From Bolinopsis microptera (taxonomy: Eukaryota > Ctenophora > Tentaculata > Lobata > Bolinopsidae): 64,000 nucleotides of DNA. Location: NCBI RefSeq assembly GCF_026151205.1, contig NC_087079.1, positions 8,114,635-8,178,634 on the forward strand, given 5' to 3'. This document shows positions 19,260-46,076 of the stretch, one piece after another. Every line of letters begins with the position of its first letter. Position 1 is the first letter of the stretch. The notes beneath the pieces were generated by a model that was not told where the DNA came from, ran no database searches, and saw nothing but the letters and a program-made list of their open reading frames with translations. Position numbers and translations under genes: made by a program.

Positions 19260-19542
19260 TGTCATAGTTCCCAAAGTTGAAAATCCGTTTGGCGCGGCTG
19301 TTCAAGTTTGATCCACCTTGTTCAGACTGAACGAGCTCGCGATAGGGAAAATTAGCAGAGACTTTGACGTCGCGCGCAATCTCCAAATCGCTTATACGCG
19401 TTAAAAGTCTAACTCTTTATCCGTTTCCGTGACATGTTTTTGTGAATTCAAAGTAGTTGGCGGCAATTTTGTGAACATATAATTACATCTTCCATGACCC
19501 ACGTAAGTAATTGTGTCAACTTTTACTCTTTTAGGTCAAGCA
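19260..19542 (+). promoter_or_regulatory. Probable upstream region and splice acceptor before kinesin start
   Basis: This stretch is richer in CpG than its surroundings (GCGCGGC near 19292, GACGTCGCGCGCAA near 19366) and contains a CRE-like TGACGTC at 19365-19371. A pyrimidine-rich tract ending in TTTTACTCTTTTAG at 19521-19534 is an evident 3' splice site only 8 bases before the start codon at 19543. The nearest upstream donor-like GTAAGT (19503) would give a 32-base intron, too short to be likely. The acceptor therefore serves either a distant 5' noncoding exon or a trans-spliced leader. Confidence 0.4.
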
Positions 19543-22500
19543 ATGAAAGACAGAATCAAAGTAATAGCGAGATTTAGACCGGGCGTCCCATCAAACATTT
19601 ACGATGTCAGAGAAGGCTCAGTGTTTGTAGATGTAAGTATGGGGGGGGGGGGGGGGGGGGCCCCCCCCAAGTATTCTGTAATCAGAAGTAAATAGCTTAG
19701 CTATACTCTTGGGAATTGACTGAAGCGCTTTATAATTAGTGATTATTGCGTAGATGTCAACAAGCATTCCAGTTTTATTTTCCTAGGTGCCCTATTAATG
19801 GTTGGAATTTACTACAGTTTTCAATTTCAACCACTCAAGTTATTCAATAAAAGTTTACTTCGAATTTTCAGGGGAAACCATACACGTATGACAGCGTCCT
19901 TGATCCGCAGAGTAGCCAGGAAGCAGTTTACAACAGTACAGCTAAACCTATCGTGCAAGGTTGGTTCACTTCTTATGCCCTCCGAGCGGACAATTTCTAA
20001 AAAGTCATGCAAAAATGTCTACCAAGACTCTTCGTGTTTAGAGGGAGAGTTCTCCCCTTGTTTAAAAAGTTTTGTTTCTTATTTTAAATATTCAAATGAA
20101 GCAAAAGAAGGGTCAACGTTGTGCTACCAGCTTGAGGAGGCCTCAAGTGGCAGTAACATTAACAATTCTTTCTGAGGATAATTTTGTCTATATTCTCGGC
20201 TATAAGATAAATCCTTGTGGTCTGGCTACAAGGCAACACTGTCATTTTCAACATACCAGGTGTTACTTTCAGTAAAGTCTCTTCTTACTTTGATAATTTA
20301 TGTTAAAAAATAAGAGTTGGATTTGTGATAGTTTGTTTTTTTTTCAGAACTGTTAAAGGGATACAACGCTACAATATTTGTGTACGGACAGACATCGAGC
20401 GGCAAGACGTACACAATGGAGGTACTGTATTCACTCTAGTAGATATAGACTTGGCTAGGACTGTGATAGCAAAACACATTTATTTTGACTCGTGGTTGGT
20501 CATCATATTATGTGTCTATACAAACTTCTCCCTAACTTTCTTATTGAATTCACTCATCTGATCTGCTAAAAGCTGCCTTGATGATCCATCTTACTATATA
20601 TAAAGCGAGACGATATATATATATCTGTGCCATTTTACTGACACCACGGCATCAACTTTAACGCGACTTTCCGCAAAAACCGTAAAAGATATACAACTGA
20701 AACTTTTTTGACTGGGTCAAATGCTTTTATGCTTTTCAAATCAGTATGAAAAAATGAAAAATTGGCCAAGGAATAGAAGTTTTAGAGCCCAAAATTTGGA
20801 CCCCCAAGTGGTGTCAAAAACGCGAATTAAATAGGTAATAATTATTTTAGTCTCTTGAGTCTTGACACCATTTTAGGGTTATACGGGTTCCTGCTAGTCC
20901 ATACAAAGTGTGTAGTTAATCTGTTTCTCAATAAAAACACTCTCCAGGGAGACCTAAGTGGGAGGAAACGCGGTATCATACCACGTGTGGTGGGGGACAT
21001 CTTCTCTCACATTGCAAAGATGGAGGACAAAGCCGAGTTCACCATCAAGATTGCTTATTACGAGATTTATATGGAGAAGATTCGGGATCTGCTCGATCGT
21101 GAGTAAACTTAAACTTTGAAATATCTCACTAGTCAACGATCATGATGGTTTAAATCCTGCTCTCTTCAAGAGACAGAAAACATCTGCTGATTTTAACCTC
21201 AAATATAATATGAAATGATTTCAAGAAATCTCTTTGAAGTAAACATAATTTCCACGTATTGCTTTTATTTCCCACGCCGATAAATACGTCTGAACTCAGC
21301 AAACAAGAAGAATCTGAGTATACACGAGGACAAGGCTAAGACGACGTATGTGAAGAATGTTACGGAGCAGTTTGTGGACTCTTCAGCTCAGATTCTGGAG
21401 TTGCTGAAGGAGGGGAAGAGGAACAGATCAGTCGCAGTCACTGGTAAGTTCAGACTTGTAATTTAGACTTGTGATTTGATGGTGTAAATACCAATTTGCA
21501 AAGATGTAACTAGTGATAAAATGAAAACAGTGATACAATTTATCTTTTAAAAACACGTAGACAGATACACAATTTGCCTTTTATCGGTTATATTGGTTTA
21601 TATCTTTATCACACACTTCGCAATTCGCATCAATTATTTCTTTTGGCATCACAATACGGAGCTATCTCGTACATATAAATACTAAATAGTCTCATAATGA
21701 AGTCCTACAACTGAGTTTTAATTCTGAATATTTTATCATGACGGTCGTAGTTACGAGTCTTAACGCTTGGTATTGTTATCAAGTTTTTCCCTTGTTCGAG
21801 ATAGACGTGTGATGTTTGCTTTAGTTGCTGCTGTGAAGGGGTTTATAAAAACCGAAGGTGAGTCGAGGAATGCTTGCCATCCTTCTCGTAATGTTTCCTG
21901 AAAATTCAATCGATTGGTGCCTCGGCTTAAATTTAACTATCAGTATAATAGTCAGGCAAGTAGAAAAAGCAAAATGAAAGCCAGAAACATTAAAACGTTA
22001 AAACGTGGAAATGATGAAAAGTGTTGAGTATCTTACGGATAGTTTCTCAGATGTAGTCTTGTTATTTTCAGTATCTTGTATCTCAGTTAGTTCCTCGTCT
22101 ACTGCTACTTTCTGGTATCCGCCACCAGACATTTAATTATTGTCCCTGATGCAAGTCATCAATCTTACTTTTACTAAAAAGTGCATTAAGTTACTGGGGT
22201 GTACTGGAAATAAGGAAGGGAAAAAGTGAACAAGTATTGAGTTCTATTACATGATTTAAATTCCCAAGGAATGGTTCCCAATTAACAAACAATTCTATAA
22301 CTCTTCTTGATAATACCGTAAACACAGGATTGATCAGAACGTAAAAGTGATGGAGTCAACTGAATTTAGATATGTGGTGTAACATGGTACTCGTTAAATC
22401 CCAACATTCCGACAAAATTATTATCTTATCGTGAGTGAAGTGGCTCTAACACTTATATCGCTCCTAGATCATGAGATATCAATTACAATTCTATATCTCA

Positions 22501-25500
22501 CAGAGGAACTCGATATATCCTGTAATCCAATTCATGAAAATCTTTTCTTATCAAACTGAGAAATTTCGTCAAATTTAGCAAAACTTCGAATACGGTTCAA
22601 TTATAATATCTCAAACATTATGAACCGAATATGGAACCATAAAATACAAGCCTCGTCAACGTTCAATGAGCCACTAAATGTATTTACAATACAGAAACGA
22701 GTGACAGTCCGTACAGAGATGTTTAATTAAACCGGGTACAGAGTACAGAGTGTATCCCATATGTTCATTATGTACCGACTACTGAGTGTGTTCAACATCC
22801 TAGAACCTTGCCTAGACGTCTAGTAATGACTAATGAGTAATACTGGGCCAAAGTGGAAAGTTTGTTCGAATAGATGAAAAAAGTATAACAAAAGGAAATC
22901 AGAAAATACAACACTGTAGAACCATACAATATGCTGATATGATAGTAGATCTAGAGTGTAAACTGTTGTGTGCACTATACGACTAGTGCAAGTGTGCACT
23001 GTACACTATACGACTAGTGCAAGTGTGCACTGTGCACTTTACGACTAGTGCAAGTGTGCACTGTGCACTTTACGACTAGTGCAAGTGTGCACTGTGCACT
23101 GTACGACTATTGTGCTCTGTAGCCGCCTCGTAAGTTGAGGGTGGTGGTAGAGAATGATATTGTAATGTAGGGCGAGTTTGTGTAATTATACCTTATTTGG
23201 AAGTTATTTTAGAGGTTTTGATTCAATTCATAGAATCCGCTGTGGTTGTGATGATTCGAGGCTTCGTAGATAGTTTCAGGTAGTGAGTTGATTGAATTTT
23301 AGGAAATTGTTGCGAAGTGGGGAAATTGTACACTTTCTGATGTGACTGTTAAGGATTTTAAGTAAGGCAGAAACTTTAGCCACAGGACTTAATCTATCTA
23401 AACATTTTAATGATTACGATGTATCTTAAAAATAAAACTCTAAGTTTCCCTGGATCTGTGGTATAACTTACAATTTCGGGACACATTATAAAGGAGCAAT
23501 GTTTCAGACATGAACGAGCACAGTTCGAGGTCGCACAGCGTGTTTCAGATCACTGTGAACCAATGTAACACTACCACGCAACAGAAACTCTCCTCAAAGC
23601 TGTATCTGGTTGATCTGGCTGGCAGTGAAAAGGTTTGATAATCGTTTCGTTGTAAGGAATCTTGGGATCCCAAAATTGTTGATCAATTATAAAGCTCATT
23701 CTGATCACCATTTTTATAAAAATGTTGAAAATCTCAAACGATTTGGGTTTACAATTTAACGGGGTAACCATGATTGTAACATGTTAGTATGGATAGTAAT
23801 TGGTAATTAGTAAAGCACTCTGACTTACACTCCACCCCAGACTTCCAAGACGAACGCACAAGGTATGACCCTAGACGAAGCTAAGAAGATCAACACGTCC
23901 CTAATGTGTTTGGGGAAGGTCATTTCAGCTCTGTCGGAGGGACAGGGACATATCCCGTACCGGGACAGCAAACTCACTAGGGTCCTTCAGCACAGCCTTG
24001 GTCAGTTTTTAATAACGATCTGTCATCAGTAAAATAGACACTATGATTTTTCACTTCTTGTGGGGTTGTAAGAGGGATAAGTTGAAACGTGATATTGTTA
24101 CTTCTCCTCGTGAATGTGGGGGTCTAGGTCTCTTCTATACTAACGATTTTATTATAGGTTTAAAAGTGTCACTTATAGGAAAAGTTATCGATCCTAATTT
24201 CCAACATGCCTGGAAAAATATTATCATCAATCAGCTTTTACACCCAAATATACCAACTGTGTGTATAAAAAACTGTCTCACATTAAAGAATACTGGTTTT
24301 ACCTTTAACCTACTTCGCCATTATAAGCTTTGGAAGTCTATTTCTTCACAGTCAAGTAAGAGTACAGTCAACCACTGTGTGTGGGGAAGCGACGTAATAA
24401 CGGACATTGGCTCCAAGCTCTGGAACGATATTCTTATTGATAGAAATATCATCTATCTTTCTGATTTCGTTTCAGAGGAAGGTAACCTCTTAAGTTTCCA
24501 GCAATTTCTGAGAAAGTGGGGCCAAACAAGTAGTATAATCTCTTCGACTCAATATGCGAGTATAAAATTGGGAATACGTCGATTTAATAATACCGATACG
24601 TTTACAAGTAACATTACATTTATCGATACCCAACTTTCACTTCGCTTTTGGAGAGGTAGGAATACCCCCAACTCTAGAGATACTCCTCTCACTATCAAAG
24701 GTAGAAACATTCGAGATACCATGTCTAAGCGTTTAGATCCCAGCACCCTTCCTCCAATGAGGAACTGGAGTGCTAACCTCTCCTTAACGGATATTGATTG
24801 GATTAGTATTTTTACGGATATTTTTACTTCTTTCTCAAATAACTTCAAACTTATTCAGTACCAATATAAGCTCCTTCACCGGATTAGTACTTGTCGGTAC
24901 ATGAGATATAAAATGAAGATTGAAAAAGATAGTCCAAATTGCTCGTTATGTAATCACAACCTCGAAACTATCTCTCACATATTTATTGACTGTCCAGCCA
25001 CAAGCTCTTTCCTACAGGGAGTAAATCTGTTTATTAGATCGAATATTGACGCAAATTATGACGACCCATAATCCATATCGTCACTATTTGATTTGCTTAA
25101 ATCACAGAGATAAAAGTGTTAACTTCATAAATTCGGTTTGCTGTTGGTTTATTGGAAGGAGTTTCCAGAACAAGGAACCCCTATTCTGGGAGCGATATCT
25201 TAAACATCTTAAGCTTTTCTTATTAGGTGAAAAACCGGATATTATACGGTGCCTTAAAGACGTTATACCTTGATGACCATTTTATACCCAAAGTTCTGGT
25301 TCCACTATACACTCTTGTTTATTTATTTTCTCGAAAATTCAGCCGTGCCTTACCTTTACCCTTTATTTCACAAGTTGTAGCTAGTGGAGTTATCTCCACT
25401 ACTAGTATTGATATAGACTCACATTTAAAACCAGTAGTATCTCTCCTTTTTCTCTCCATCTTATGTGCAATTTATTACTCTATATCCACTGACTTTATTC

Positions 25501-28500
25501 GACGTATTATCTAAAAGAATAAAAAAAATTGTGTGCGTGTGTTTTTATATTTATTTTGCTACGGCGCATGTGAAACCCCAGGGCATCCAGCACCGGAGAA
25601 GCTGAAATGACACTCTCTGAACCCTTGGTGCCGCTCAGATTTTGCCTCTTGGCTGGTAAGCCGAGTCATGATCGATTAACTCAGCTTCTTCGGTACAACA
25701 CAGACCGGAGGGTACTATTAGCCGCTTTGCCGGTGGTATCCTCCTGGTGTCCTGGGGTTTGGCAGGTTCCTCATTTAAAAAAAAAAAAAAAAAAAAACGA
25801 TCTGTCAGATTTTTTTTAAATTATTAAAAACATATATGGGCAATTCTCATAAAAAGCGTCATTTACTCCCTCGAATTTTCAATCTCATATCATTTCATTT
25901 CAGTAAATAACAAAACGTTGATTCAAGCACCAATTGACTGATAAACGTTTGAAATCTACTGTGTCATCATATCACTTTTAACATGAATAACTTAAAAACT
26001 GATTATCAATTTAGATAATTAATTAAAAAACAGGCTTTTTTCAGAGGTGTCAGCACTTTTTCCTGTCCGTGACGCCTGAAAATGAGTCACGGACGTGACA
26101 ATGTCTTATTCTGTCACGTCTGTGATGCATCACGGGCGTGACTATGGCTTATTTTGTCGTGTCTGTGACACTTTTTTTAGAGTTTCTAATTGAATTCAAG
26201 CATTAGAACTTCCTTGATACCTCAATTAGAGTGTTCCAATTGATTCTATCAGGTATACTAAAACCTCAATAATCATTTGGGAATACAAATTCAAAGATTC
26301 AGAACCCCTAAAGTGGCAAGTCACAAAGTGCTATGATAACACAATATCTATGGTACAAAAGTGCAAAAAGCTTTTAAAGCGAGGAACAAAACATAGAAAC
26401 ATGGAATTTAACCGGATAGGAAATGGAATTATCACATCTATGTACAATGTAACAACTATAACACTCATTTGTGGAATGTAGGAGGGAGGTGAATGGTGTT
26501 CAAGGTTGCCAAAATCGATTAAATTTTGTGTTCAAAGTTACCTAGTGCCGTTAAAAGTTACCCCAGGCTGTTCCAAGTTACCCCAGGCTGTTCCAAGTTA
26601 CCCCATGTTCCAAGTTACCCCATCCTACCCTACTGTGTACGTGAAAAGTATTTATCAGTATGTATCACATACATAAATTACATACAGTTTTTAGATTTCA
26701 GCTACTCTAAAAGTGCATACAGACGGGACAAAATAAGAATTGTCCTGTCCGTGATGCATTACGGACGTGACTATTCTTATCCTGTCCTGTCCGTGACAAG
26801 TCACGGACGTGACTATTCTTATTTTGTCCTGTCCGTGACCAGTCACGGACGTGACTATTCTTATTTTGTCCTGTCCGTAACCCGTCACGGACGTGACAAA
26901 AACGTCACGGACGGACACCCAATGTAAACAAATTAAGAGAAGATATATTCACGTACTCGAAGTATGATGTCCTTTGTTTTAACGAGACTAATCTCTTGCA
27001 GGATAAGCTTCCTAATGGTATTAATGACCTAGTGCTTGAGGGATTTTATGAACCACTGTTACGAGATCCAATACGTAGTTCTGGTCGTGGTGGGGGTTTA
27101 GCAATTTATATCAATACGCGCGTATGCGAGTCTGAAAATATTGAAAAATTCTTTCCCCAAAACTTTGATGTGACAGACAAGAGTGGTGAATTCATGTTGG
27201 TAAAACTCCATAACTGCAAAGGCTTTAACAAAACAAAGATAATCGTCAATATATATCGGTCACCAGCATCAAAAAATCCTGATAATTTTAACAAACTCAT
27301 TGACTCCCTATTACACGGCATGGAAAGGCACTCGAGAAAACATACTATATTAGTCGGTGACTTCAATGTAGATCTTACACATTATGATACTGACAAACAC
27401 TGTCAAAATTTGATTGAAACTATGACCAAATACGGTTTCTTTCAGCTAGTCTCACGTCCCACACGTATCACTGATCACAGTGCCACTCTTATAGATCATG
27501 TTTACAGCAATAATGTACAACACACACACAGCTGCAATGTTCTTACTGTTGACCTGTCTGATCATCTAGCCACTCTTGTTACTATCTCACTTGGGCAATA
27601 CAGCCACATTGCAGGGAGCAGAAACAAACGACACAGAGTCGACCATGGAATGAATGTTGAAAAACGTATGTTTAACGAGTCGAACAACCTTAAATTTATA
27701 GAATTAATTGGATCCGAAATGTGGGAGGAAGTCACACGTGAAAATTGTGCTGATGAACAATATAACAAATTTATTGAAATATACGGTCAGCATTATGATG
27801 AGGCATACCCAGTGAAAACCAATCATGTGCGCCGCAAATGTGAAAGGCAGGACCCCAAACCTTTTATGCTACCCTGGCTTGAAATTGCATGTGCTCGTAA
27901 AAACAAATTATTCCATGCCAAAATAGTGGACCCAACGGAGGAAAACTACAAGGCTTACAAAAAGCATAAGGCATTCTGCGACAAGCACGTCAATAAGGCA
28001 AAAGACAAATACTACAAAACACAATTTGATAAGTATAAAGATTGTTCAAAGAAACAATGGCAGCTGATCAACACTCTACTTGGCAGAAAATCTAAATCTC
28101 ATAACAAAATTAAACTCCAAAACGCCGACGGAAATATCATAAATAGTGACAGTGATGTAGCTGAGCACTTTAACTCTTACTTCTCCAACATTGCCACAAA
28201 AATCAAAGATGCGATCAGCGCGCGTACTGTATTCGATCCAGGGGGTTTTAAACATTACCTTAGCAGCCCAGCTTCGCAGTCTATGTTCGTAAGACCAACT
28301 ACCGAAAGTGAAGTTGAACAAATTATTAGCAAGCTTAAGAATAAATCCACTCAAGACACTAAAATTGAACCCCTAAAAATGGTAAAAGACTGCCCCTCCT
28401 TCTGTAAAGTCTTGTCCATAATCATTAACACATCATTTAGTCAAGGTATCTTCCCATCATCTCTCAAAATAGCTAAAGTTATACCAATTCACAAAGGAGG

Positions 28501-31500
28501 CAGCAAATCCGACGCCACTAACTATCGACCCATATCTTTGCTGTGCACCTTTTCCAAATTGTATGAAAAACTTATGCATAATAGAGTAATGGACTTCCTT
28601 GACAAGAAAGGCTCGCTCTTTGAAGGGCAATATGGCTTCCGGCCAGGCCGATCCTGTGAGCATGCTCTTTTGGATGCTCAACACACGATTCTGAATTCCC
28701 TTGCCAAAAAGGAAGTTGCTCTATTACTCCTAGTCGACTTTAGTAAAGCTTTTGACGTTTTGTCTCATGATGTATTGATTGACAAACTCCAGCACTATGG
28801 AATCCGTGGGCAAGCTTTGCAATGGTTTAAATCCTACCTGAGCACACGTCAGCAATATGTATGTTTGAATGGTATTAAATCAGCTCTTAAACCTATTACA
28901 TACGGAGTTCCACAGGGCAGTATTATGGGACCTTTGTTATTCCTAATCTACATCAATGATATGCCAAATATCAACAGTATGATAAAGTTTATACTCTACG
29001 CTGATGATGCAAACATCATAATAAAAGGCAAAAATGCAAACGATGTTATACAAAAATTCAACCAATTCTCCCACGAGTTTGTACGCTGGGTTGACTGTAA
29101 TGGACTTGCACTTAATCTAAAAAAGACCTGCTATATGCTTTTCGGTGTTAGAAATACTGATAATACTCCAAATATTCATATTGCAGACACACAATTAGAA
29201 CGTAAAAGGGAAGCACGGTTCCTTGGCGTTATAATGGATGATAAACTAACATGGTCTAAGCATATAGCAGCTGTTAGATCAAAAATGATGCGGTATGTAG
29301 GAATTATGTATAAAATAAAACGTCACCTATCGATTCAAATAAGGCTACAGATATATCAAAGTTTTGTTCAATCGCATTTAAACTTCTGTTCAATTGTATG
29401 GGGGTTTGCAGCAAAAAATCACATTGAATCACTCTTCTCACGACAAAAACAGGGTATCAGGGCAGTAATGCCAGGTCACATTAATTACTTTTACAAAGAC
29501 GGTCGACTGCCAGAACACACAAAACAATTTTTCAATAACAATGGTATACTCACGGTGCACAGTGTTATTGTAAAAAACACACTAATTCTCATGCACCGAA
29601 TCAAACATTTCCGCAGCTCAGTCCCTCAACAAATCTGTATGACTATCCCAGAAAATGCACCCACTGCAAACTCAGATCACGTGACTGCAGCATCCTGGTT
29701 AGCCGAGTACAACACCACACATTTCAGATCTTCGATGTTCTTCAAAGGACCTTTACTCTCAATTTATGCTGTAAATGCAAATGTAAGCACCCTACCAACA
29801 CTTTTTTCCATAAACCTTTTTAAATCGGCTACAAAACGCATGCTCTTGAACCTGCAGAGTGAAAATGACGATGACACGTGGCCCAGTTTCTTATTACATA
29901 ATATTCCAGGTCTAAGAAGGTCACAACGTGTCTGAAAGTTACTGGACACAACGGTCATTATATCAGTTTAGTGAATTAGTTAATTAGTTAATTAGTAAAT
30001 CAGTTATTAGTCATATGGTTATTATTAAGTACTATATATTATATAATATTACAAAAATAAACTATGAATATATATTTGCACACAAAAAAACCAGAACAAA
30101 CTGATCACAGACTAGCGGCAACTAATATTAATGGATAAGCCACACATCCTAAATTCCAGGTCCATATTTACACTGCCACATTCCCCACTATCACTATTTT
30201 CCTATCAGCACAAACCGTAATTAATTTATTTCAACAATCACAAACACTACATATCCAAACTAATGGCATGGCATAGCATTATCTACGATATCCTAAATCA
30301 GTCCCTAACAAACTTAGCGCGAGTCTGAAAGGCTGTTGGAAGCACAGAGTGCTCCATATTTTGTTTTTATCAATAAACTTTTTTTTTCATTTTCTTTTTT
30401 AATAAATTTATTAACTGCGTGCAAATTTGTGTTTCAGATTTGATCTATTTATGATATATATTTATGATTATGTAATAAAGTTATTAATATTATATTCGTA
30501 AACATTGGCTGGCTTACAAACCAGTCCCCAAACAAACAAACACTGATTGGTCAATTTAGCAGCTAAAAAGTCTGCAAACTGCTGACACTACAATGGTGTC
30601 CAATAGAGATCTTTATAAGCTAACGCATGATATAACTTTTATAGAAATTGGAGGAAAAAATTTCTATTAGTGACTTGTGACGCTTTTTATGAGAATTGCC
30701 CATATGCCAGTTGAGCAGAGGGTGTGGTCGTCAGGTAACAGGTTAAGTTATGTTAATGTGAATTTAAATTTCAGGTGGTAATTCCAGAACTACAATAGTA
30801 ATCTGTATGTCAATGGATGCTACCAATGAGAGCGAAACTAAGTCTACTCTTGCTTTTGGGACTCGGTAAGTGCAATTAACCAATAATACTCACAACTTTT
30901 TGCTCAAACTTTAAACTGCGAATTTTAAACGTATATCCCCACTTTTTTAAATAACGACCATTTGTTTTAGAGCGAAGAAGATCAAGAACGTGGTAACACC
31001 CAACATAGAGCTGTCACACGACGAGCTGAAGAAGAGATACGACAGAATCAAGCACATGTACGAGAAATGTAACTCAGAGTTACTACGGTGGAGAAGCGGT
31101 TAGTTTACTTACCTCACTACTTACCTTTACTTACCTCCTACTTACCTCACTACTTACCTTTACTTACCTCCTACTACTATTACTGATAAATGACAAGTCT
31201 AGACGAAAGCTGGCTGATGATATTATACATTTATCTGACCCATCTGGTGCTCTTATTAGTTTTTGGCGACTCCACAAAAGCTTTGTTAAGAGTTAATAAG
31301 AGAAAGAATTCCTTATATAATATAAAGAATTCTAGGAAGTGAATGAAATTTTATATTTCGCATCCCTCAGGTGAATCAGTTAACGAAGAAGACCGAGTAG
31401 AGCTAATGACCAGTATGACTGATATAACTATGAGTAGCTACCCTCCCACTCAGCCCACGTGCACGTGCACGAGCGCGCCGACTGTGATCCCAGTGTGCAC

Positions 31501-34500
31501 GTGCACAAACATAGTTCCCGTAATCAGGGCTGGTACACAGCACAGAGCACCTTGTCTGGTTAATCTGAATGAGGACCCCCAGGAGGGGGAGTATCTGTCC
31601 ATTGACATTCCAGAGGTGCGTGACACGTGACATTGAATACTTTATTTAGAAATAAGTTGGAAAACTTAACTTGTGGGATGATTGTTTATCAGTCCATAAA
31701 TTTGCAAACTAATTTTACTTATTAACTGATCTATATAATCTATATGTTATTGATTAATAGTGAACGATTGTTATCGATAGTTGACAATTGCTAATGGTGG
31801 CTGTCATTGATAATATTAATTTAATTGTTTTCAGGGTATGCTCCTGGTAGGAAGTTCCCAAGTCCCAGACACTGTCGACATTTATCTGTCCGACGTTCTT
31901 ATACACCCAATCCACTGGTAAGCTTCTTCCTCTAAAACGAGTCAACTCGATTTTCTATAGCAAAACTAAGGAATTAGCTTGTTTTTTCTTATGTAGCGAT
32001 AATATATTGACTCGGCTACAGCAACTGTTTTGAAATTCATTTTTATTTTTCCACAGCAAGCTAGAAAACTGCGAAGGGAGAGTTTTCTTGAAACAGTGGG
32101 AATCAGAGGCGACTGTCTTTGTCAACGGGCAGCTTTTGATCGGTGAAATTACCTTGAACCACGGAGACAGGGTTATCTTCGGAGGTGGCCACTATTTCAG
32201 GTTCATTTGATCACAGTTTCCCGTATTTATAGTTAAGTAATTATAAACCCGGAAATCTTCATAATAACTGCTAATTATACTTATAATCTAGCTATAAAAA
32301 TGAAATAGATATAAGATTATCGATTAAGATTATCAACACTTAACAAAAACGGCACTATAACATGCTATTTTTTAAACATAGCTGCATAATGAGAGTGCTA
32401 ATATTCAATGTTTCAACATTTTTAATTACGAACAGGTTCACAGCACCTGGTGGGACTGTTGTTTTACCGGAAAATAAACTACGGAACGTGGCAGACTACG
32501 AGTTTGCTAAAACAGAACTCATCAACTCGTGAGTTGGTTCATTTTTGATCCAAATCACAGTTTTTAAAGATCATCCCAGAAATCCAGCAATTTCTATAAC
32601 GAAACGAAACGAAACATAGTATTTACTACCGCGCTTCTATGCGGCAAAGATATTGTATACAATATAACTAAATAGCTTACACAATAAAGTGCCCAAGTCT
32701 GAACGGCTCTCCTAAAAAACTTTCCTCTTCGGAACAAAAAGTTAAAAACAAACACGGATTTAAACAATAAAATTTCAGAGTAAATAACCAGAAGCACATG
32801 AAGCTGATGACAGAGAACGAATCACTGAGCAGAGAGTTGGATAAAGCCAGGAATAAGATATCGGAGATGACTTGTGAACTGGAGGCTGGGCAGGCCATCA
32901 TTGAGGTACGGATTTAGTTTAATTTAAATGAATAAATAGATAAATCATTTTTTTACAGCGCAATTATATTTGATTAAAGAGAATGATTTCGCCTCTCATT
33001 TTAAAATTTCGCACTTTTTTTGTTATTCGTTGACGTTTTTAACGTTATACTCGCCCGCTCAAACTCAAATCGATAGTGTTTGTTCAATAAGATATCTGAG
33101 TTAATTCAAGTTCTGATCATCTCAGATGACAGATCTGACTGTGTTCTCAGACTTGCCCATGCAATATGTTTTCTAAATGCTTTATCATATTGCTCATTGT
33201 TACCATTATTATACTGCATTGTGATTTGTGAATGAATTGTCTATGAGTCCAAGTTTGGAATGGGTGAGATCACGTGTTTTTCTAGTCCAAAGCCGAAGTG
33301 ATATCACGTGATACGTACCTATTCCTTGAGGGACCGTTCTTTCCACATAATTATTATCTCCCCAAACCATCCCTGTATCTCCTGATTCTAAGAAAAGTAG
33401 ATGTGTCCCTGTGTTGTACTCCACTCCTGAAATATCCCTGGCTATTTCACTTACTTTTTATATCAGAATTTATTAGACCAAGATCGTAAATTGAAATAAT
33501 TTTACCGCCAGCGTAATTTTAAATCCTATGTTTACGCAAGTAGCAATATTTAGCATTCGAACTCGCTCAGCTCAAGTTTACCTTTTCTGTTGATGGGAAG
33601 GTCGCCGTCTGATATGAGTTTATCATCAAGGTGCACAATGTAAAATTGCTGTCCTGAAAATAGTTTTCAGGAAACTTTCTAAACTTTTTACCAAGAATTG
33701 TTGCTTAAAGAATAGAGAGGGTTTCAACGGTAAAAATCACAGGATTAGAAAGAATCGACTGTCCAAGTTTAAATATAGAACCAAGCCGAAAATATTCACT
33801 AACGTCAATAAGTCAAAGTTTGAATTTTACCTATTTCCACCTTGAGCGAGAAGGTAACATTGGATTTTATATAAAGTGGGAACTTTAACTCCGCTCCCCA
33901 CACTTTATTTCTCATTGTATTAAGGATCAAGTTATTTTCGTGAAACCTTAAGCCGTAGTTAAACACTGCGTTTCTCCGATCCTTTTTTAACACCTGTTTT
34001 GTAGGGACTTTGGATAAAACAGGTGAACATGCAAAAAATCAATATAATCGAAAAGAGAAGTATTTGATAAATTTGTAAAATCCATATATTCGACGAATTG
34101 CCCAATCCAGGAAATAAAACCAAATTTCTAAATCACTTAAAAATTCGACCATGAATTTAATCAACTAATTTTTGGATCCTTTGAAATAGAAACCTCCCAA
34201 ACCTGAAAGTTGTTCTTATTCGTCAACTTCTTGTGGGGATCTAAGTTTCTTCCTGAAATTACTATCACGTCTCCAATTTGAAGAGACTGTGAAAGTAATA
34301 TCGGGTTACCGTATCCAGGAAAATCAAAATTCGTTCTCTTTCGGGCCTCCCATCCTAGTGTGGGAAATTAGCTATTGTTATCTCTTTTAACAAAGAGTCT
34401 GGTTAAATATCCTACAGGGATGAGAAGACTGGACCAGGGTTATTTTTGGTAGAGTTGAGTAATTACTAATTAAATTAAATGACATTTTACATCCCTAAAT

Positions 34501-37500: not shown

Positions 37501-40500
37501 ACTAAACATCAGGGAAATGTTAAACAAGTTTCCATACTTCTACGTTCTTCTCGTACTTTCTTTCATCGTCATCTTCCTGGCTTGTTCCTGTTGGAGTTGG
37601 AACATATTGAGGAAACGTATGATTCTGCTACCTCCATCTAAATATATCAACCCTTCTTATGATTCTCATTTCTCTTCAAGTAAGATATGCAGTCAAGAAG
37701 TAGAACATTCAATTCATAGTTTCAAAATTCAGGCGAATACCAGCGCTTTATTGTTTGTCAAAAGCACTTATAGCTTTCATGTTTAATTAATTATATTAAG
37801 AGTCTTCCTTGTCAGTAAGAAACTGTTGAATCCCACAACATTTGCCGTTAGTGGTTAACGGCCTGCAGAACTTTGTCCATTTTTAGACAAAATCCAAAAC
37901 TCACTAGAAGATTTTCAGGATCTTATAACTGCTAATCTCAGTTAATCTTCTGAGCGTAGAACTACTTCAGTCCACTTTTCATTCTTCCAAAATCATAACG
38001 TGAACTTCATTATATCATAGGATGTGAACACACAAAATACTAAATATTAGAGATATACTTGAAAACCAAATAAGCTTAAATATATGACACTCTAACCCGC
38101 TCCTAACCCTCTCACCCACTCCTAACCCTCTAACCCGCTCCTAACCCTCTAACCCGCTCCTAACCCTCTCACCCGCTCCTAACCCTCTAACCCGCTCCTA
38201 ACCCTCTAACCCGCTCCTAACCCTCTCACCTGCTCCTAACCCTCTAACCTGCTTCTAACCCTCTAACCCGCTCCTAACCCTCTCACCCGCTCCTAACCCT
38301 CTAACCTGCTCCTAACCCTCTAACCCGCTCCTAACCCTCTAACCTGCTCCTAATCCTCTAACCCGCTCCTAACCCTCTCACCTGCTCCTAACCCTCTAAC
38401 CCGCTCCTAACCCTCTAACCCGCTCCTAACCCTCTAACCCGCTCCTAACCCTCTAACCCGCTCCTAACCCTCTAACCTGCTCCTAACCCTCTAACCCGCT
38501 CCTAACCCTCTAACCCGCTCCTAACCCTCTAACCCACTCCTAACCCTCTAACCCGCTCCTAACCCTCTAAATCACTCCTAACCCTCTAACCCACTCCTAA
38601 CCCGCTCCTAACCCTCTAAATCACTCCTAACCCTGTAACCCACTCCTAACCCTCTAACCCGCTCCTCTCTCCCGCAGGGTCAAGCAGCAAACACTCGCCG
38701 GTTAAGCTCCCGACGCCAGTCTAGTGTCACCACGGTGTCTTCTTCTTCAGACGGAGGTGAGGACTGTGTGGAGAGACTAGTCCTCCTCTCTGGGCAGCTC
38801 CGAGACCGCATCATGGTCAGTAGTCTTGTTAGTCTTGTTAGTCTTATAAGGCATTCTCTAGATTGTTTTGGAATTTGTAGTCTAATTTATCTATAAATAA
38901 ACCTTGAAAATTTGCGAATTTCATCGGCCAACGACTTCAGAGAGTGAAATTTTAGCTTAAATATGAAAAGTGAAATGTTGATTTTTTTCACAGGAAGGAC
39001 GGGTACCTAAACAAGACAAGAACCTACAAATCTCAACATACCTCGACTCCTGTGATTCCTTGCTCAGCGACGAAACCTTCAACATGTACCTAAAAATGAA
39101 GGAAGCAGGCGAGCTCTGTAAGCTCATCAAACGAAACATCGTCTTCACGCGAGAGACCGTCTCCATGGACAACAGATCAGACGTGTTCATCAGAGCTGCT
39201 GACTTGACGAATAACAGAGCGATTGTTTGGAGCTTTGAGACGTTTTGTGAGCGAGTTGAAGGGTTGAAGGCTTATTATCAGGCCTTGTGTCAGGTACGTT
39301 TAGTAATCTTGTGATAATTGACACTCTTACAGATCAGCCAGCTGCTTTCTGCAAGGTTTGGCGGCTGTTCTGATCCTTATTTAGTCTAAAGTTTTGATGA
39401 CATTTACTCGCCAATATTGCACGTACGTCGTATAGCAGAGTATTTTCATTCGCTTCAGTATTGTATTTAATCTCGTAATATCTCCTCAGAACTCGGTGGT
39501 GCCAATAGAGGGTAAGGACATGTCAGGAATATTCGGGTGTGAGGAAGAGTGGGAGAAGGACCTCAGCATGCTCTCAGACGAGGCGAGCATTATCTCCGAG
39601 ACTAAGCTTTCTTCTAGCGCTTCCGAGAGTTTCCTGAGTGCCACCTCTTTTATCAGCACCCCTAGGAGTAAGTAGATGATGTTATTGTTACACTGACATA
39701 TTCTTACACTGGGACAATATTGTTAAACTAGGATGATATTGTTAAACAGTTAAAAAATCGTGGCTTTGAAAAAGTAGCGATATGTCTTGTCAGAACAATC
39801 TTTTTGTTACTCATTTAACTTTTTTGTTTATAAAACTAACTTTAGTTTATTGAACTAAATGTTTCTAACTTGCTCAATTTAACTAAGTTTCTCATCACAT
39901 CAGGTTGCAAATCAAGAGGCGGAGACCGTTACGGAGACTGCTTATCACAACTACACCTCCTACTGACAACAACACCTCAAATGTGTAACACCTTCTCTGG
40001 TAACACTCTCTGCGACACCTTGTTAGAAAGTGTCAGAGCTGTCAGCTACACTCTCTCCTCCATCGCTGACAGTGAGTCAGAACTCCATTTAAATACCTAA
40101 TCGTATAATTTATATTGAAGCGATTTACTTTAAGTTCCTGATTGAAATTTTAACCTACATTTTCCGTGGCGTGTTTTTTAATTGGCTTAATGGCTTAGAC
40201 AATTATATAGGGCCATATAACAGCAATCCTCACGTAACACTTCTCCTTCTCAGAGGAGGTGAGTCTGGTACCCAAACTAACCCACCATCTGACATGTCTG
40301 TACCGTGATGCTGCCTCCTGGACCCAACACACTAAACCTAACTTCAAACTAACCCACGCAGTACAGGATGTCCTGTCTGCTGTTAAGAGAATCGTGCAGG
40401 TAATAAGATTGTGTGGATTTTGGAATGTGGAAAGTTTTAAATCCGGTTTGGACTGATTTTGTGGTTTTTTAATATTTGAGTTAAAGAAACCTTATTTATT

Positions 40501-43500
40501 CATCTTTGTTAAAAGCTCATTTCTTAACCCGCCTTATATTTTCAGCGGTCGATCGAAGGAAGAAACATTCATGAAGCGGATCTGAGTCGAGCACAGGGGC
40601 TGTTATTGGAGGTGGTTTACCATGCTGGTCAGATGTGTGGAGCAGCTCTGGTGGACTCATCCTCTGCAGTTCCTCCAACCGAGGGTCAGCATTTCCTTTT
40701 AGCTTTTGTTATTTATTGTTACATTTGAATCCAACTCAGTAACTAAATGTTTAAACGACTGGTAAACATTTAAGCTTATATTAAAACTCTGTGCTATAAT
40801 GTGACTACATAGTGCCATGACATAAGTTTTCTTTCAATATGAGCAACATTAAGAGACATCAAGGTTGGGTCTGCTACTATTTACTAAAATCCTACTCAAA
40901 TCCTAGCGCCCTAAACATATTCCCCTTTAAAAATGAAAAACGTAAATTCATCAGAAATAAGCGCAGAAGTCTATTAAACTCGCTACCAAGTCCAACACAG
41001 AACAAAAACCATCTTATCAAAATGTCCACTCAGAAGGGGGTTCCATGGTGAGTTACCAAGCTTTGCATGTCTTCCTAATAACCGGGCACCCACTCTCGTC
41101 TGCTCCGTTAGGGCAGTGGGTGTAGCCGTCACAAGCCCTCCAGATTGGAATACAGAAGCTCAATGAACCGCACTTGAACCCAAATCTTCCACATGGCACT
41201 GAAATGAGGGATTTTGTAATATTACTGCGCTTTATTGAGATGATGAGATTCTTGTTAATCGTTGGGTAGTGCAGTACAAATATATGGGAACGTTTAAAGA
41301 AAAGAGCCCAAGTTTTGATCCATAAATAAAAAGGTTGGTTAGTAAATGTTGCGTGTGTTAGCCTCCTGAAACACGCACAGTATTCATCACTGTCCCAACC
41401 AAAAGGCGAGAGGGATGGTGAAATCACCAGTGTAATCACATGACAGCTCTTAAATCTGGCGACATTTTTTCACTTATTTTTTTTTCGGAAAAGTTTAAGA
41501 CTTCAGGTATGATTTTCAATTAGTGAATTTCTGAACGGAAAAAAAAACAGAGACTGTCTTGTGATTACAGGTCTCCCCTTTTGGGTGGGTCATGTGATTA
41601 CACTGAGACAGCCTGACAAACGTGACTAATCTACTCAAATACAAGGAAATATTTTGTGTCGACGTTTATCAGCTGCCGTAATATCACCACCCCTCCTACC
41701 TCTAGTTGTAACAGCCCTGTTCATCAGTTCCTCCGGGACAGTTCCATACACCGTCACAAACATTCCACACTCCGATACAGTAACTGTTTCTAGATTCCGG
41801 GTTACATGCCCAACCAAATGAACCGCAACTTGTTTTGATCTCTTATGGGTAGGTAATTGTGATTTTCTTGGTGTAATTATGTTATTATGTAATTATGTAA
41901 TTACGATATTCAAGTGCGCTTTAGCTTTCTAAAGGCTGTAAATGGAGTTTAACTAATGCTTATGATGTTAACAAAATAAGTAGCTGCACCAACATCGAAA
42001 GACGGCAAACACCTTTCTGTTATCTGAGAAGCTTAGAAAATTGTCATGAGTAAATGCCACCCTGTCATTAGCAACCGAGCTCTCAGTTCTAACTTTAACA
42101 GAAACACCCTTTATTAGACTGATCGATAGTGAGAATCTCAATGAATTTATCAATTTATGGTTAACAATTTAATTAAAAGGATTTAATGCAACAAGAATTT
42201 CGCCGCGGTAACACCACGCACGATCAAATTTCCCTACTGCCTACAATGTATTTGTTCTACTTAAGGGGTCGTTCACATATTACGTAATCAGCTGAGGGGG
42301 GGGGTTTCCGAATGATTACGCTAGTGTAATTTCGACACAATAGCTTTGTGTAAAACTGATTACGGAGGGGGGGGGGGTAAAACTGTTCCAAAAAATGATT
42401 ACGTAATATGTGAACGACCCCTTATTGTATCCCACAGTGGTGTTTGGCGCACGCGATAATCGTTTATATTATATTAGGCGTGCAGAACTTGTAAAATTCT
42501 GCGCGCATCTGAAGTGTCGCCGTCGAATGTCGATCTGTATGTGGTTTGGTTGTAGATCATTTCATTTTTGCGCGGTTTTGTTTTGTGTTAACGATGAGTA
42601 TCATAAATCAAGAGGCTTGCATATAATGAACATATTGACACGGGTGCAGAGTTGAGTCTGTACGGAACCTAGTAGTTTCAGATCCTTGTTTAACTTGCCG
42701 TACAGCAAGGTCATCCACTACTTTAGCCCGGCGAGGCACATAACTCCCTCTACAACTCCATGACAAATGTTTCATATATACTAGCCGAGCTCACAAGATG
42801 TCACGTCATATTATTGCATCGTATGCCAACTTTATTGACTGTAATCAACTATTCTGTCTCATCTTAGTTATTATTTGTATATAACATAAACTAATGCTTT
42901 TGATGCTTACATCTACAGCACCATCGACTATCGACTATCGAGCCTTTGATTTTATATAGGATTCTTTAAAAGCATACCGCAATCTTGATCTTAGTTGCTC
43001 CTTGAATGTAAATGTAAAGTAACATCTTTTGTCAACTATGTTTTCGCTTTTTAAATTTTACCATGAAGTGTCGATCAACTGTTATAAGTAATATATATTA
43101 AGTAATCAGCAACGAGTTTATCAGCTGATATCATAATTTAATTTGTTTCGACTTGCTGAATTTTATCACTCGGTAATTTATTAAGCTTGTTTCACCAAAA
43201 TAACACTTACATTGATGATTGATCCGCTCTGATGACTAATATGCTATATTAATGAATAAGAGTGAATTGTAACCCGATGGAAACCTGTGTAACAGTCGTC
43301 AAGCACCAAAAACTGGTTGCTATGCCTGTAATTAATTAACACATAACAGGCGTCGCGCGCGCAAAATAGACTCCTTTTATACACATAGTTATAGGAGAGT
43401 GGTCTATATTGCGAAGGAGCAGACTTTTGTCGTCAACGTAGGACCGTCGGGCCACCTCATATATCCAAACCCGATTACTTATTCCCTACGATCTTTTTGC

Positions 43501-46076
43501 CTTCGGCAAGAGTAGGGAAAAAAATTCTCGGTGACCTGACGATTCTCTAGCTAACGTTATTTCATCAATTCATAAAAAAGAATTAAAATCGAGTTAGTGA
43601 AAAAAATCTACATTCATTTAGGGACAAATTGGCTCAATGAATTTATTAACTTACTTTTAGGGCAGTAGTTGTTGTTGTTGTTGTTATTATTGTAGCAGTT
43701 GCCACAGAACCAGTTGGCATAGTGAGGGTTGTTGAAGTTGTTATTGTTGTTGTTGTTGTTGTTGCTGTTGTTATTGTTGTTGTTATTGTTGTTGTTATTG
43801 TTGTTAGCCAATTGACGCTCAGCTAACTCTACAACTTCCTGACCCCAGCTGTTGCTCCATGGGTTACAATTCCAATAGTTGTTATTGCCGTTGTTGTTAT
43901 TGTTGTTGTTATTGTTGTTGTTATTATTGTTGTTGTTATTGTTGTTGTTCGCAGCCAAGGCGGCTCCAACGATAACAACCAGGACTAAAACTTTCATCCT
44001 TGAAATGGTGTTGGTTTTTTAACAAATCGCTATAATAAAAAATAAGGTCAAACGTTTTTTATGGCGTAACATCAAAAAAATCGGAAAATATAGTCACCTT
44101 TTAAAATAATTGGGAAAAGCACATATTGAACAATCCCCAAAAAGTTCATTATTAATATTATCAGATGGCAAGTTGATAATGCAGCGACTTTTAAGTTTTA
44201 ATACTATCGATATAGAATACAAAAGAGAGTAAATCTTGGCAAATGAATAAAGTTTCAAGCTGGATCGCAATCCTATAGTACTATGTTTACAGTATGCACT
44301 GAAGGGGTATCCTAGGAAGTTAAGGAAGAACTAGAATTCCTTGAGCATTTTTTGATATCTTCATCTCCATCCAAAATTGTATGTTTGATGCGCATAAAGA
44401 TGTCTCCAAAATTGCGCTGTCTATCGCCACGTAATTATAGGGAGAGACAGATCGAAAAACAGTGAAAATCGAACGGAAATTTGCAAATTGAATGTCTGTG
44501 ACGCTTAATTTATTGTCAACGAAAATGTATTTAGCTACAATTTCTGTGAGGTGCCGTAACTTCATGAGATTAACACTCAAATCCGAGCAAAGAGCTGAGC
44601 TTGACGATCCAGTCTCTCTGCCAGTAACTTAGGTCACTAGCCACCTGGTCATTTGCTGGGCGTGTCTAGTTCACAGTTAACAAACATGAACAGATGATCA
44701 TAGTGTACATTTTATTAGGGAATTTAACGCAACCTCTGGTGAGATTTTGAAGCTAAGACTGGGTAACTAGCCGCAACAACTGGTCACGAAATTTAACGAA
44801 CGTCTGCCCCTGGGCCCATGATCTGCTGTTGTTCACTTCAATTCAAATTTTAAATATGCACGTACCTACAAAGATTAGAGGTTCTGGACGCTGAAATTTA
44901 ATTTGGAATAAAAGTCCTCTCTAAAATACGATTTCTGAACGAAAACATGTTAAAATTGAATAGTATCGTAATCTTATCATGTTTTTCAGGAAAGAGTCAA
45001 GCAGCTGAACGGACCTCCTTACCAGCTACCAGCACTCCTAATAGACATAGCATTCTCAGTCCTAGAAATATAGACCTGGACGTTACTAGTGATTACAACT
45101 CTTCTGGAAGCTCCATTGATACCAGCCAAGGTATTTGAGAAGTTAACTTGTCGTTTTGTTCACCCTAATTTCGATTAAGAAGAGGATTGAAATTAATGGG
45201 TCCTTGTCAAAATAAGTATTGATGTGGGCGGTGGTTTTAACATAAATGTTTTCAGGGGACATCTCTGAAACAATGCGGGAGAAGTTACTGCTGGGAGTTC
45301 AGGTTTACCTCCAGCAACTGATTGATGATACAACTGAGGGGCTCTCTTCAACTCTCACCCTGTCTGTTAGTCCATCTGTTCGTCAACCGAGGAAGCTAAA
45401 GGACAATGTGGCCAAGTTGTCGGCAATTCTCAGGGCTAAGGTTTGAATTTTTGTGTTTATTCACCATTCACTGCGTGGTATCCGTATAGCAAAAATATTG
45501 GATCTAAAAAAAACAATTCGTTGTTTGACGACAGCACTCATCAGTTCAACTACATATTATTGATTATTATAACATCATAGTGGGAATAGAATTTCTTTAC
45601 ATATTTAACGAGTATTTTACTTCAGAAAGACGATATTTCTAGAGTATTTACGATTCAAGACTCCGCTACAGAATCTGTGCAATTCCTCCTTTCTGGAGTC
45701 ACATCACCTGAAAACCTATTTCCAAAGCTAAATGAGGTTGGTTACTACGTTTGTCCTATAATTTTATTTCAAACATTTTTTGATGTTGATAAGGTTTACG
45801 AATACGGCGAGGGGAATTAATTTTCGCCATTTCTCAACTATTTATAAAAATTTTTATTTTTGCTGACTATTCCATCATTCCTTGATATCTGTAGTGTTAA
45901 CAAATAACCCCTCTCAGATACAGAGCTGGTCTCGGATCGTAACCGCCGCGGTAACAGACAAGGAGAACACACGTGACACTAGCCACGTGATACGACAACT
46001 AAACTACAAGATCGAGGAAGTTCTGGGGTTGGTGAGGGTTGATCCTGTTCTTAGCTCAACTCCTAAAGTGAGATGA
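19543..46076 (+). CDS. Chimeric kinesin: kinesin-1-like motor and neck joined to kinesin-3-like FHA block, 24 exons, 1,135 aa
   Basis: Exons: 19543-19632, 19872-19959, 20348-20421, 20948-21098, 21300-21443, 23508-23632, 23841-24000, 30775-30865, 30971-31098, 31371-31615, 31835-31917, 32057-32200, 32436-32528, 32779-32905, 38678-38815, 38994-39293, 39490-39667, 39904-40071, 40254-40399, 40546-40684, 44990-45130, 45256-45440, 45626-45736, 45918-46076. All introns are GT-AG, all phases join, and the sum is 3,408 nt. The motor (1-350) has P-loop GQTSSGKT (73-80), switch I NEHSSRSH, switch II DLAGSE (218-223) and kinesin-1 signatures [28 protein letters not shown] and a kinesin-1-type neck ending LLRWRSGESV. 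Residues 412-510 form an FHA domain introduced by LVNLNEDP, a kinesin-3 hallmark, followed by [11 protein letters not shown]. Residues 628-730 (AGELCKL to [19 protein letters not shown]) resemble the kinesin-3 stalk region. No PH domain or kinesin-1 tail is seen; the last 350 residues are unrecognised. It should be a plus-end microtubule motor; cargo is unknown. Confidence 0.85.
19641..19668 (+). repeat. G20C8 run just after kinesin exon 1
   Basis: Twenty G followed directly by eight C begin eight bases after the exon-1 splice donor. It could fold as a hairpin or quadruplex, or be an assembly or sequencing artefact of a homopolymer. Confidence 0.8.
22965..23112. repeat. 31-bp tandem repeat in kinesin intron 5
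   Basis: The unit TACGACTAGTGCAAGTGTGC followed by ACTGTGCACTT is repeated about four to five times with few changes. Each unit contains the palindromes GACTAGTG-like and GTGCAC. It is intronic; no function is evident. Confidence 0.85.
24026..25795 (+). mobile_element. 5'-truncated L1/Tx1-like LINE with 12-bp target duplication
   Basis: AACGATCTGTCA occurs at 24014-24025 and again at 25796-25807, directly after an A tract of about 19 bases, so insertion boundaries are precise. The frame opens right at the left boundary and gives [17 protein letters not shown], then [12 protein letters not shown], as in the post-RT region of L1/Tx1 reverse transcriptases. It passes a C-terminal [19 protein letters not shown] zinc-knuckle-like block and shifts frame near 25060 to end at 25273. 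A 3' untranslated part rich in CCAGGGCATCC-type sequence precedes the A tail. It sits in kinesin intron 7, same strand. Confidence 0.85.
26068..26178. repeat. Palindromic CACGGACGTGAC motifs, left cluster
   Basis: Variants of GTCACGGACGTGAC, each near an inverse copy GTCACGTCTGTGA, occur two to three times. They relate this part to the ordered tandem array at 26705-26915. Confidence 0.6.
26535..26630. repeat. Short tandem repeat GTTACCCCAGGCTGTTCCAA
   Basis: A 20-base unit is repeated about three to four times with shortening at the right end. It lies between the two clusters of palindromic motifs inside the TIR-bounded element. Confidence 0.7.
26705..26915. repeat. Tandem array of about 54-bp units, each containing an inverted repeat
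   Basis: Each unit carries GTCCGTGAC, five bases, GTCACGGAC, then GTGACTATTCTTATTTTGTC. Three to four units are present. The array reads open on both strands (repeating [10 protein letters not shown]-like peptides), which is a by-product of the repeat and not a gene. The LINE ORF begins directly at its right edge. Confidence 0.8.
26918..29935 (+). mobile_element. LINE ORF2 (endonuclease and reverse transcriptase), about 1,005 codons, intact frame
   Basis: The frame is uninterrupted from about 26918 to the stop at 29933-29935. An apurinic-type endonuclease comes first: [31 protein letters not shown] and SDHLATLV. A reverse transcriptase follows with [71 protein letters not shown] and LYADDANI, then [16 protein letters not shown]. 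These place it in the jockey/CR1 superfamily. Only the first few endonuclease residues and any ORF1 are missing, so it is 5'-truncated but otherwise undamaged, which suggests a young insertion. The first in-frame ATG (26996) is internal to the domain. The 3' end is not marked by a clear poly-A; no target duplication was found. Confidence 0.85.
31104..31180. repeat. CTTACCT-rich tandem repeat next to kinesin exon 9 donor
   Basis: A 44-base unit made of CTTACCTCACTA and CTTACCTTTACTTACCTC is present twice. On the minus strand it reads as strings of AGGTAAGT, the ideal 5' splice-site sequence; on the coding strand it is inert. Confidence 0.7.
33209..34632 (-). CDS. Secreted galectin-like protein nested in kinesin intron 14
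   Basis: Minus-strand exons: 34632-34563 (signal peptide [20 protein letters not shown]), 34354-34203, 33993-33831 and 33653 onward; phases join. Exon 4 either reads to the stop at 33550-33552 (162 aa) or splices at 33582 to an exon at 33426 that reads to a stop at 33209-33211 (224 aa). The fold pattern is that of galectins: [15 protein letters not shown], then [28 protein letters not shown] and [10 protein letters not shown]. The Asn, Trp and Glu of the sugar site (LILNT, VWGAE) are kept, but the HxNPR strand reads NYGLR, so beta-galactoside binding is uncertain. A hydrophobic N-terminus is unusual for classical galectins. The acceptor-like TTATTTCTCAG lies 26 bases before the start codon. 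Confidence 0.65.
35857..36172. repeat. Imperfect tandem duplication of about 165 bp with internal palindromes
   Basis: TTGAATTATGCTCCTTCTAT near 35859 recurs near 36026, followed by matching CCACACCTAAACAATTCGCT-type and TTAAGGGATC-type sequence. Copy 1 has gained a run of CTATTGTATAGACTATACAA palindromes. The rest of kinesin intron 14 between 34650 and 37480 shows no other gene that I can support. Confidence 0.6.
36379..36672 (-). CDS. Unrecognised open frame, 97 codons
   Basis: A minus-strand frame ends with [20 protein letters not shown] then [15 protein letters not shown]. The composition looks coding-like, but no domain is recognised and no splice partners are evident. It lies in kinesin intron 14 between the galectin-like gene and the membrane-segment frame at 37490. 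It may be the last exon of a small gene or a transposon remnant. Confidence 0.2.
   Translation of the reverse strand: MKRHREVLQHNVFSVSMLMLMLCVSSKSCLIPNMYYSELVNPNLPTFLKNLRQLSGITDARLNIILPQILITDEVGTKAIVYSGRLREPRPQAPVIQ
37490..37678 (+). CDS. Possible first exon of a small single-pass membrane protein
   Basis: From an ATG at 37490 the frame encodes [20 protein letters not shown] followed by a strongly hydrophobic stretch ([17 protein letters not shown]) and a basic flank NILRKRM. A good donor, TCAA followed by GTAAGA, lies at 37679. Without splicing the frame runs to a stop at 37786. No downstream exon was found. It is within kinesin intron 14, same strand, so it could also be an alternative start or cassette exon. 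Confidence 0.3.
38093..38664 (+). repeat. 19-bp minisatellite running into a kinesin 3' splice site
   Basis: About 30 units of CTAACCCGCTCCTAACCCT with scattered C/T changes fill the end of kinesin intron 14. The last unit grades into CGCTCCTCTCTCCCGCAG, the acceptor of exon 15 (38678). The units are pyrimidine-rich and each holds CTAAC, matching the animal branch-point consensus, so the array could supply many branch sites and polypyrimidine tracts. Confidence 0.9.
41053..43997 (-). CDS. Secreted poly-asparagine protein with LDL-receptor class A terminal exon(s)
   Basis: Exon 1 (43997-43655) encodes the signal peptide [15 protein letters not shown] and then long asparagine runs broken by short aromatic and cysteine islands ([29 protein letters not shown]), ending with a GTAAGT donor in phase 1. 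Two downstream minus-strand exons each have a phase-1 acceptor, one LDLa domain and a stop. They are 41841-41702 ([20 protein letters not shown]; total 160 aa) and 41198-41053 ([20 protein letters not shown]; total 162 aa). Both show the C..CDG..C..G.DE..C calcium-binding pattern. The gene lies in kinesin intron 20, antisense to it. Whether the LDLa exons are alternatives, or one belongs to a second gene copy, cannot be told. The asparagine runs use mostly AAC/AAT and are a likely slippage zone. Confidence 0.6.
42264..42422. mobile_element. 159-bp MITE with TA target site
   Basis: Perfect inverted ends beginning AGGGGTCGTTCACATATTAC (over 20 bases) bound the element, and TA flanks both sides (42262-42263, 42423-42424). 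The middle contains two G-runs and a second inverted GATTACG motif. It lies in the intron of the poly-Asn/LDLa gene model and within kinesin intron 20. The TA target suggests mobilisation by a Tc1/mariner-type transposase. Confidence 0.8.

Follow-up and report, generated by a model that had tools for sequence, protein, structure and literature searches.

In the present study, we analysed a 64,000-nucleotide stretch of the genome of the comb jelly Bolinopsis microptera (assembly GCF_026151205.1, contig NC_087079.1, positions 8,114,635 to 8,178,634 of the forward strand; hereafter the window, within which all positions are counted unless another contig is named) and describe a chimeric kinesin gene, in which a kinesin-1 motor, neck and hinge are followed by an FHA domain and tail that are likely closest to those of KIF14, a kinesin-3. 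It is close to certain that the chimera is real and conserved in two comb jellies. Its motor half probably derives from a duplicate of the conventional kinesin gene KIF5 and its FHA domain and tail from KIF14, the two having been joined within exon 10 with replacement of the KIF14 engine. We favor, with a probability of roughly 0.6, the reading that this gene is the sole KIF14 of comb jellies and runs on a kinesin-1 engine, its native motor having been lost while the cargo and regulatory half was kept and the arrangement became fixed across species. It is the motor that defines a kinesin family, and its joint evolution with the tail is generally taken for granted. A natural, conserved chimera of kinesin-1 and KIF14 lends itself directly to testing which half sets function, and raises the question of whether a transport engine is sufficient for a cytokinesis kinesin or whether the job of the protein has changed. 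It also indicates that a gene can be given the wrong label if its family is assigned solely from the motor, and it may offer a shared derived character for ctenophores.

The chimeric gene and its motor half

The gene comprises 24 coding exons (19543-46076, + strand) and encodes 1135 amino acids in a single open frame. Upon splicing of the window DNA, all exons are bordered by AG/GT and agree in phase, with weak-consensus donors after exons 6 and 22 (gtttga) and exon 12 (gttcat), and the GC content of the coding part is about 48%, compared with 38% in the window. In Pfam, one reading of the hybrid matched Kinesin (376 bits) and FHA (PF00498, 41.2 bits). The first-pass annotation had recognized a kinesin-1-type motor, neck and hinge and a kinesin-3-type FHA domain in one gene, a combination borne out by structure scores, motor trees and the orthologue described below, and the motifs it quoted lie where it had put them (LLRWRSG at the end of exon 9, (G)ESV to LVNLNEDP in exon 10, the rest of the FHA domain in exons 11-13). 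The extent it gave, 30971-32905, is correct for exons 9-14, but the gene continues beyond 32905: 8 exons lie upstream and 10 more (38678-46076) lead to the stop codon. Nor are both parental tails lacking, as it had proposed, since about 600 residues follow the FHA domain and their first module is of KIF14 type. A truncated protein without a tail is ruled out by exons 15-24.

A predicted protein of Mnemiopsis leidyi, P0001, has the same domain order and is identical to the hybrid at 902 of 1116 aligned residues (81%), with identities of 92% in the motor, 86% in the FHA domain, 86% in the post-FHA module and 57% in the linker. Its gene is predicted on a 14.9 Mb contig and the protein model runs across the exon 9-10 junction, where a break between transcripts had been named as a refutation; an orthologue with the same order in a related animal had been put forward as a check. 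The same layout in Mnemiopsis makes an assembly artefact very unlikely, and a chance motif match is ruled out by the 24 phased exons together with the orthologue. We consider it highly improbable that a KIF14-like gene and an adjacent kinesin-1 gene or pseudogene were read as one by chance or mis-assembly. Two long introns, one of 6.8 kb with retroelement open reading frames (ORFs) and one of 5.8 kb, do break up a gene model spliced from genomic DNA, but the retroelement ORFs sit in the intron that separates exons 7 and 8, within the motor part and away from the junction, the junction itself is one 245-nt exon holding both the hinge and the start of the FHA domain, all phases fit, and the same protein is encoded on the Mnemiopsis contig.

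The kinesin-1 identity of the motor is evident from several comparisons. Among structures in the PDB, kinesin-1 matches residues 1-354 best, at 414 bits, compared with 253 for KIF3B, 246 for KIF4 and 224 for KIF1A. In a 23-row motor tree, the hybrid and its Mnemiopsis counterpart fall inside kinesin-1 (support 100/100), as sisters to three KIF5 proteins (its own, that of Mnemiopsis and P0013; 96/99), with 11 kinesin-3 rows, including KIF14, on the opposite side. A 30-row tree that included 18 further kinesin loci from this genome (16 assembled from match pieces and 2 intronless) again places the hybrid inside kinesin-1 (99/100). Both trees rule out a kinesin-3 motor, the outcome that the first-pass annotation had named as a possible refutation. 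In the alignment, loop 12 is without the lysine-rich insert of kinesin-3, as in ctenophore KIF5. Relative to KIF5, the neck coil is shorter by exactly seven residues, i.e., one heptad, and its register is therefore kept. The hinge GE[SA]V[SN]E is common to the hybrid and KIF5 across the exon 9-10 border, the post-neck residues GESVNEED of the window and GESVSEEDQ of the Mnemiopsis hybrid aligning with GEAVSEDEQ and GESVSEEEQ of two conventional kinesins. At the N-terminal strand, four residues precede IKV in both hybrid models, compared with nine in the animal's own KIF5.

Conventional KIF5 is retained in the same genome, on contig C13 (10739600-10753307), where 22 pieces cover residues 1-960 of Mnemiopsis KIF5 (P0012); the hybrid motor must thus have come from a duplicate. 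The compared stretch of the motor holds 9 introns in the hybrid and 10 in KIF5, of which 7 coincide in both position and phase, whereas random placement gave at most 2 shared introns in 20,000 draws; the neck introns of the two genes are 5 nt apart. Because seven of the nine hybrid introns match and the hinge residues are common across an exon border, we read the motor as descended from the conventional kinesin gene of the same animal through duplication at the DNA level.

Exon 10 starts with the kinesin-1 hinge residues and carries LVNLNEDP of the FHA domain in its later part, which places the join inside this exon, and the sequences point to the poorly conserved linker within it. Recombination between introns had been suggested as the mechanism; recombination exactly at an existing intron is ruled out by an exon that carries both parts, and an intronic breakpoint with later intron loss is possible. 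Directly at the fusion point (31457-31507, residues 380-396), the linkers of the two ctenophore hybrids each carry a cysteine pattern, TCTCT...CTCT.

The FHA domain and tail

From about residue 412 onward, the protein is likely a kinesin-3, nearest to KIF14, with a KIF14-type tail kept. A search with residues 405-740, comprising the FHA domain and the module, gave 704 proteins at E values up to 1. Among the best 120 of these, which were inspected, the Mnemiopsis protein was first and the other 119 were of KIF14 type, 116 by name or by the Pfam KIF14 bundle and three (P0133, P0183 and P0213) by kinesin and FHA domains and rank alone; none of the 120 was a KIF13 or KIF1 by name. The BLASTP query coverage was 90-97% in 97 of the 119 KIF14-type matches listed. 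A first tail search with residues 390-1135, in which 7987 candidates were scored, gave 8 proteins, headed by the Mnemiopsis orthologue and two insect KIF14 (E values of 4.8e-18 and 1.1e-16). The affinity extends beyond the FHA domain: in a profile alignment, the two ctenophore tails without FHA matched 38 KIF14 tails at residues ~656-763, i.e., into exon 17, with a probability of 97.3 and an E value of 2.3e-11, compared with probabilities of 1.2 for KIF13 tails, 0.3 for KIF5 stalks and 0.3 for reversed KIF14 tails. The earlier assignment of this half to kinesin-3 is hence retained, with KIF14 in place of the KIF1/13/16 group in general.

An origin of the tail from a generic kinesin-3 of KIF13 or KIF1 type, with separate loss of KIF14, is rather unlikely. 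In favor of such an origin, the structures matched by the hybrid FHA domain are those of KIF13B, KIF1B, KIF1C and KIF1A, with KIF13B the closest among 16 PDB matches, a set without a KIF14 FHA domain; a tree of the FHA domain alone separates the hybrid and KIF14 from KIF13 and KIF28 only weakly (59/74), and five of the eight proteins from the first tail search are mosquito KIF13, at E values of 1e-6 or weaker and behind the two KIF14. However, 119 of the best 120 matches to the FHA domain and module together are of KIF14 type, pairwise comparison of the FHA domain favors KIF14 (83-86 bits) over KIF13 (66 bits), the spacing of the aligned module, judged by eye, is short and KIF14-like rather than having the longer KIF13 loop, and the profile alignment recovers KIF14 tails but not KIF13 tails. 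Trees of the FHA domain and module set KIF13 apart (100/99 and 100/100).

The remainder of the tail is less distinctive. The Pfam Kinesin-associated region has a sub-threshold match of 15.9 bits in the hybrid, and the last 370 residues, in which no Pfam family passes the cut-off, are predicted, at low confidence, to be mostly helical in the Mnemiopsis protein; helices at residues 788-956 of P0001 are likewise predicted at low confidence. Neither the stalk nor the tail of KIF5 is matched significantly by the hybrid tail, and the IAK motif is absent after the motor, the single IAK lying at residue 106, inside the motor.

Gene layout and intron contents

The positions of exons and of elements within introns are collected in Table 1. 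An acceptor lies immediately 5' of the start Met, at 19535, and a further 5' exon is therefore possible. Besides the retrotransposon in the table, intron 7 holds an ORF at 24016-25071, which we take to be of retroelement origin. The length of the minisatellite next to exon 15 may influence splicing. On the minus strand, a low-complexity stretch at 43660-44000 is asparagine-rich if read and possibly encodes a short secreted protein.

Table 1. Features of the chimeric kinesin gene in the window
Feature	Positions	Strand	Content
Motor exons 1-7	19543-19632, 19872-19959, 20348-20421, 20948-21098, 21300-21443, 23508-23632, 23841-24000	+	Met to ...LQHSLG; holds the P-loop
Intron 7	24001-30774	+	6.8 kb, between exons 7 and 8; retroelement ORFs inside
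Non-LTR retrotransposon ORF	26897-29935	+	Intron 7; 1012-residue stop-to-stop frame; endonuclease and reverse transcriptase domains
Exons 8-9	30775-30865, 30971-31098	+	End of motor core, neck linker, neck coil, ...LLRWRSG
Exon 10 (fusion exon)	31371-31615	+	245 nt; hinge GESVNEED, CTCT-containing linker, FHA start CLVNLNEDP, ends ...IPE
Exons 11-13	31835-31917, 32057-32200, 32436-32528	+	Remainder of FHA domain
Exon 14	32779-32905	+	Predicted helix after FHA, low to moderate confidence
19-bp minisatellite	38090-38666		Intron 14; 30.8 copies; ends 11 bases 5' of exon 15
Exons 15-16	38678-38815, 38994-39293	+	End of post-FHA linker, most of KIF14-type module
Exons 17-24	39490-39667, 39904-40071, 40254-40399, 40546-40684, 44990-45130, 45256-45440, 45626-45736, 45918-46076	+	Module end, C-terminal region, stop

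History, function and comparison with known systems

Most probably, the KIF14 motor was replaced in the course of evolution. A KIF5 duplicate would have come to sit upstream of the KIF14 gene, the motor and N-terminal extension of which would then have been lost, and the joining would predate the split of Bolinopsis microptera and Mnemiopsis. Since both hybrids branch outside the three ctenophore-clade KIF5 proteins in the 23-row motor tree, the duplication should predate the last ancestor that these three share, and the chimera may have a wider distribution. The pairing appears to be rare: for 119 of the 121 KIF14-type proteins from the two tail searches, the motor is nearer to that of KIF13 than to those of KIF5 and the hybrid (in the other two it is missing or partial), and the Mnemiopsis orthologue alone carries an FHA domain among the best 120 of 7985 motor relatives. 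A survey of 1624 kinesins from 45 eukaryotes distinguishes 105 domain architectures, with motor-FHA among the three ancestral ones and most architectures limited to one organism (PMC2867816). We found no published account of a protein with a kinesin-1 motor and KIF14 tail under ctenophores, Mnemiopsis, KIF14, FHA or domain shuffling, in a literature coverage that leaves out most subscription papers.

The alternative that the chimera is a neofunctional extra gene with a role of its own, e.g., in ciliary or neural transport, and that an ordinary KIF14 is present undetected, seems unlikely to us, if less so than the other two. The retention of conventional KIF5, which makes the motor that of a duplicate, would suit it, as would the fact that 9 of the 28 kinesin loci fetched from the genome are outside the tree. 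Against it, KIF14 has no partner among the 18 other motor loci placed in the tree; a KIF14 query gave 33 matches in the same genome (34 of 73 candidates scored), the best being at KIF13-like and KIF28-like loci; and no second Mnemiopsis protein is among the 8 matches of the first tail search (7987 candidates scored). The kinesin-3 loci recognized in the genome are presumably one KIF13-like, one KIF1-like and three KIF28-like. Among the loci, C11:9238253 and C1:18694886 (L001 and L002) are KIF13-like and KIF28-like genes whose frames run uninterrupted for 1015 and 984 codons. Best scores are identical within each of two pairs of kinesin loci, C13:4982550/C13:5070304 and C11:11303567/C11:11341653, the second pair on opposite strands; these are either recent duplications or uncollapsed haplotypes.

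Several observations weigh against a chimera of KIF5 and KIF14 with a replaced motor, in addition to the mosquito KIF13 matches and the weakly supported FHA tree described above. The gene model is genomic DNA spliced by reading, the absence of an ordinary KIF14 rests on motor searches of limited depth and a partial kinesin inventory, and the function of the hybrid is read from its relatives only. As to the motor, the 30-row tree does not resolve the sister relation of the hybrid to ctenophore KIF5, and two hybrid motor introns, one of them the neck intron, have no KIF5 match, as three KIF5 introns have none in the hybrid. As to the tail, query coverage is 30-68% in 22 of the 119 KIF14-type matches among the best 120 of 704, KIF14 does not form one group in the FHA and module trees, which hold only 3 and 6 KIF14 rows, and at E values up to 5 Pfam does not list its KIF14 four-helix bundle, PF23313, for either the hybrid or P0001.

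In bilaterians, KIF14 is found at the midzone and midbody and acts in cytokinesis. If the comb-jelly chimera has taken over this work, it would rely on a kinesin-1 engine and would lack the KIF5 tail as well as the PRC1-binding N-terminal part of KIF14. Intact motor motifs, DLAGSE among them, argue for an ATP-driven, plus-end motor, and the shorter neck coil, being in register, would allow a kinesin-1-type dimer directed toward the plus end; the short N-terminal strand may lower force production. The FHA domain and tail module would position the motor and perhaps keep it inactive, as in kinesin-3. For KIF1C, one report describes FHA and stalk elements that can touch and suppress the motor (PMC12905500). 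For KIF14, published work describes an N-terminal extension with a PRC1-binding part (PMC8206134) and action with citron kinase at the midbody (PMC4821246, PMC9656288). Since the extension is absent from both hybrid models, a role in cytokinesis would need another means of recruitment, most simply via the tail.

Collectively, the hybrid resembles each of its presumed parents in one half. With KIF14, including Drosophila Klp38B, it shares the FHA domain, the post-FHA module and the order of motor, FHA, predicted helix and module. Unlike KIF14, which has a kinesin-3 motor, it has a kinesin-1 motor, its models start without the N-terminal extension (an unrecognized 5' exon being possible), a linker of ~50 residues stands where KIF14 has the Pfam Kinesin-associated region, and the four-helix bundle is not listed for it. 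With KIF5 (P0012 and the animal's own gene on C13), it shares the motor, neck linker, neck coil, hinge and seven motor intron positions, but its neck coil is one heptad shorter, there is an 8-residue gap, the N-terminus is five residues shorter, and neither a match to the KIF5 stalk and tail nor an IAK motif follows the motor. KIF13, KIF1 and KLP-6 differ from it in having kinesin-3 motors, and KIF13 further in its longer module loop and in the CAP-Gly and other tail domains of the mosquito proteins, which are not listed for the hybrid.

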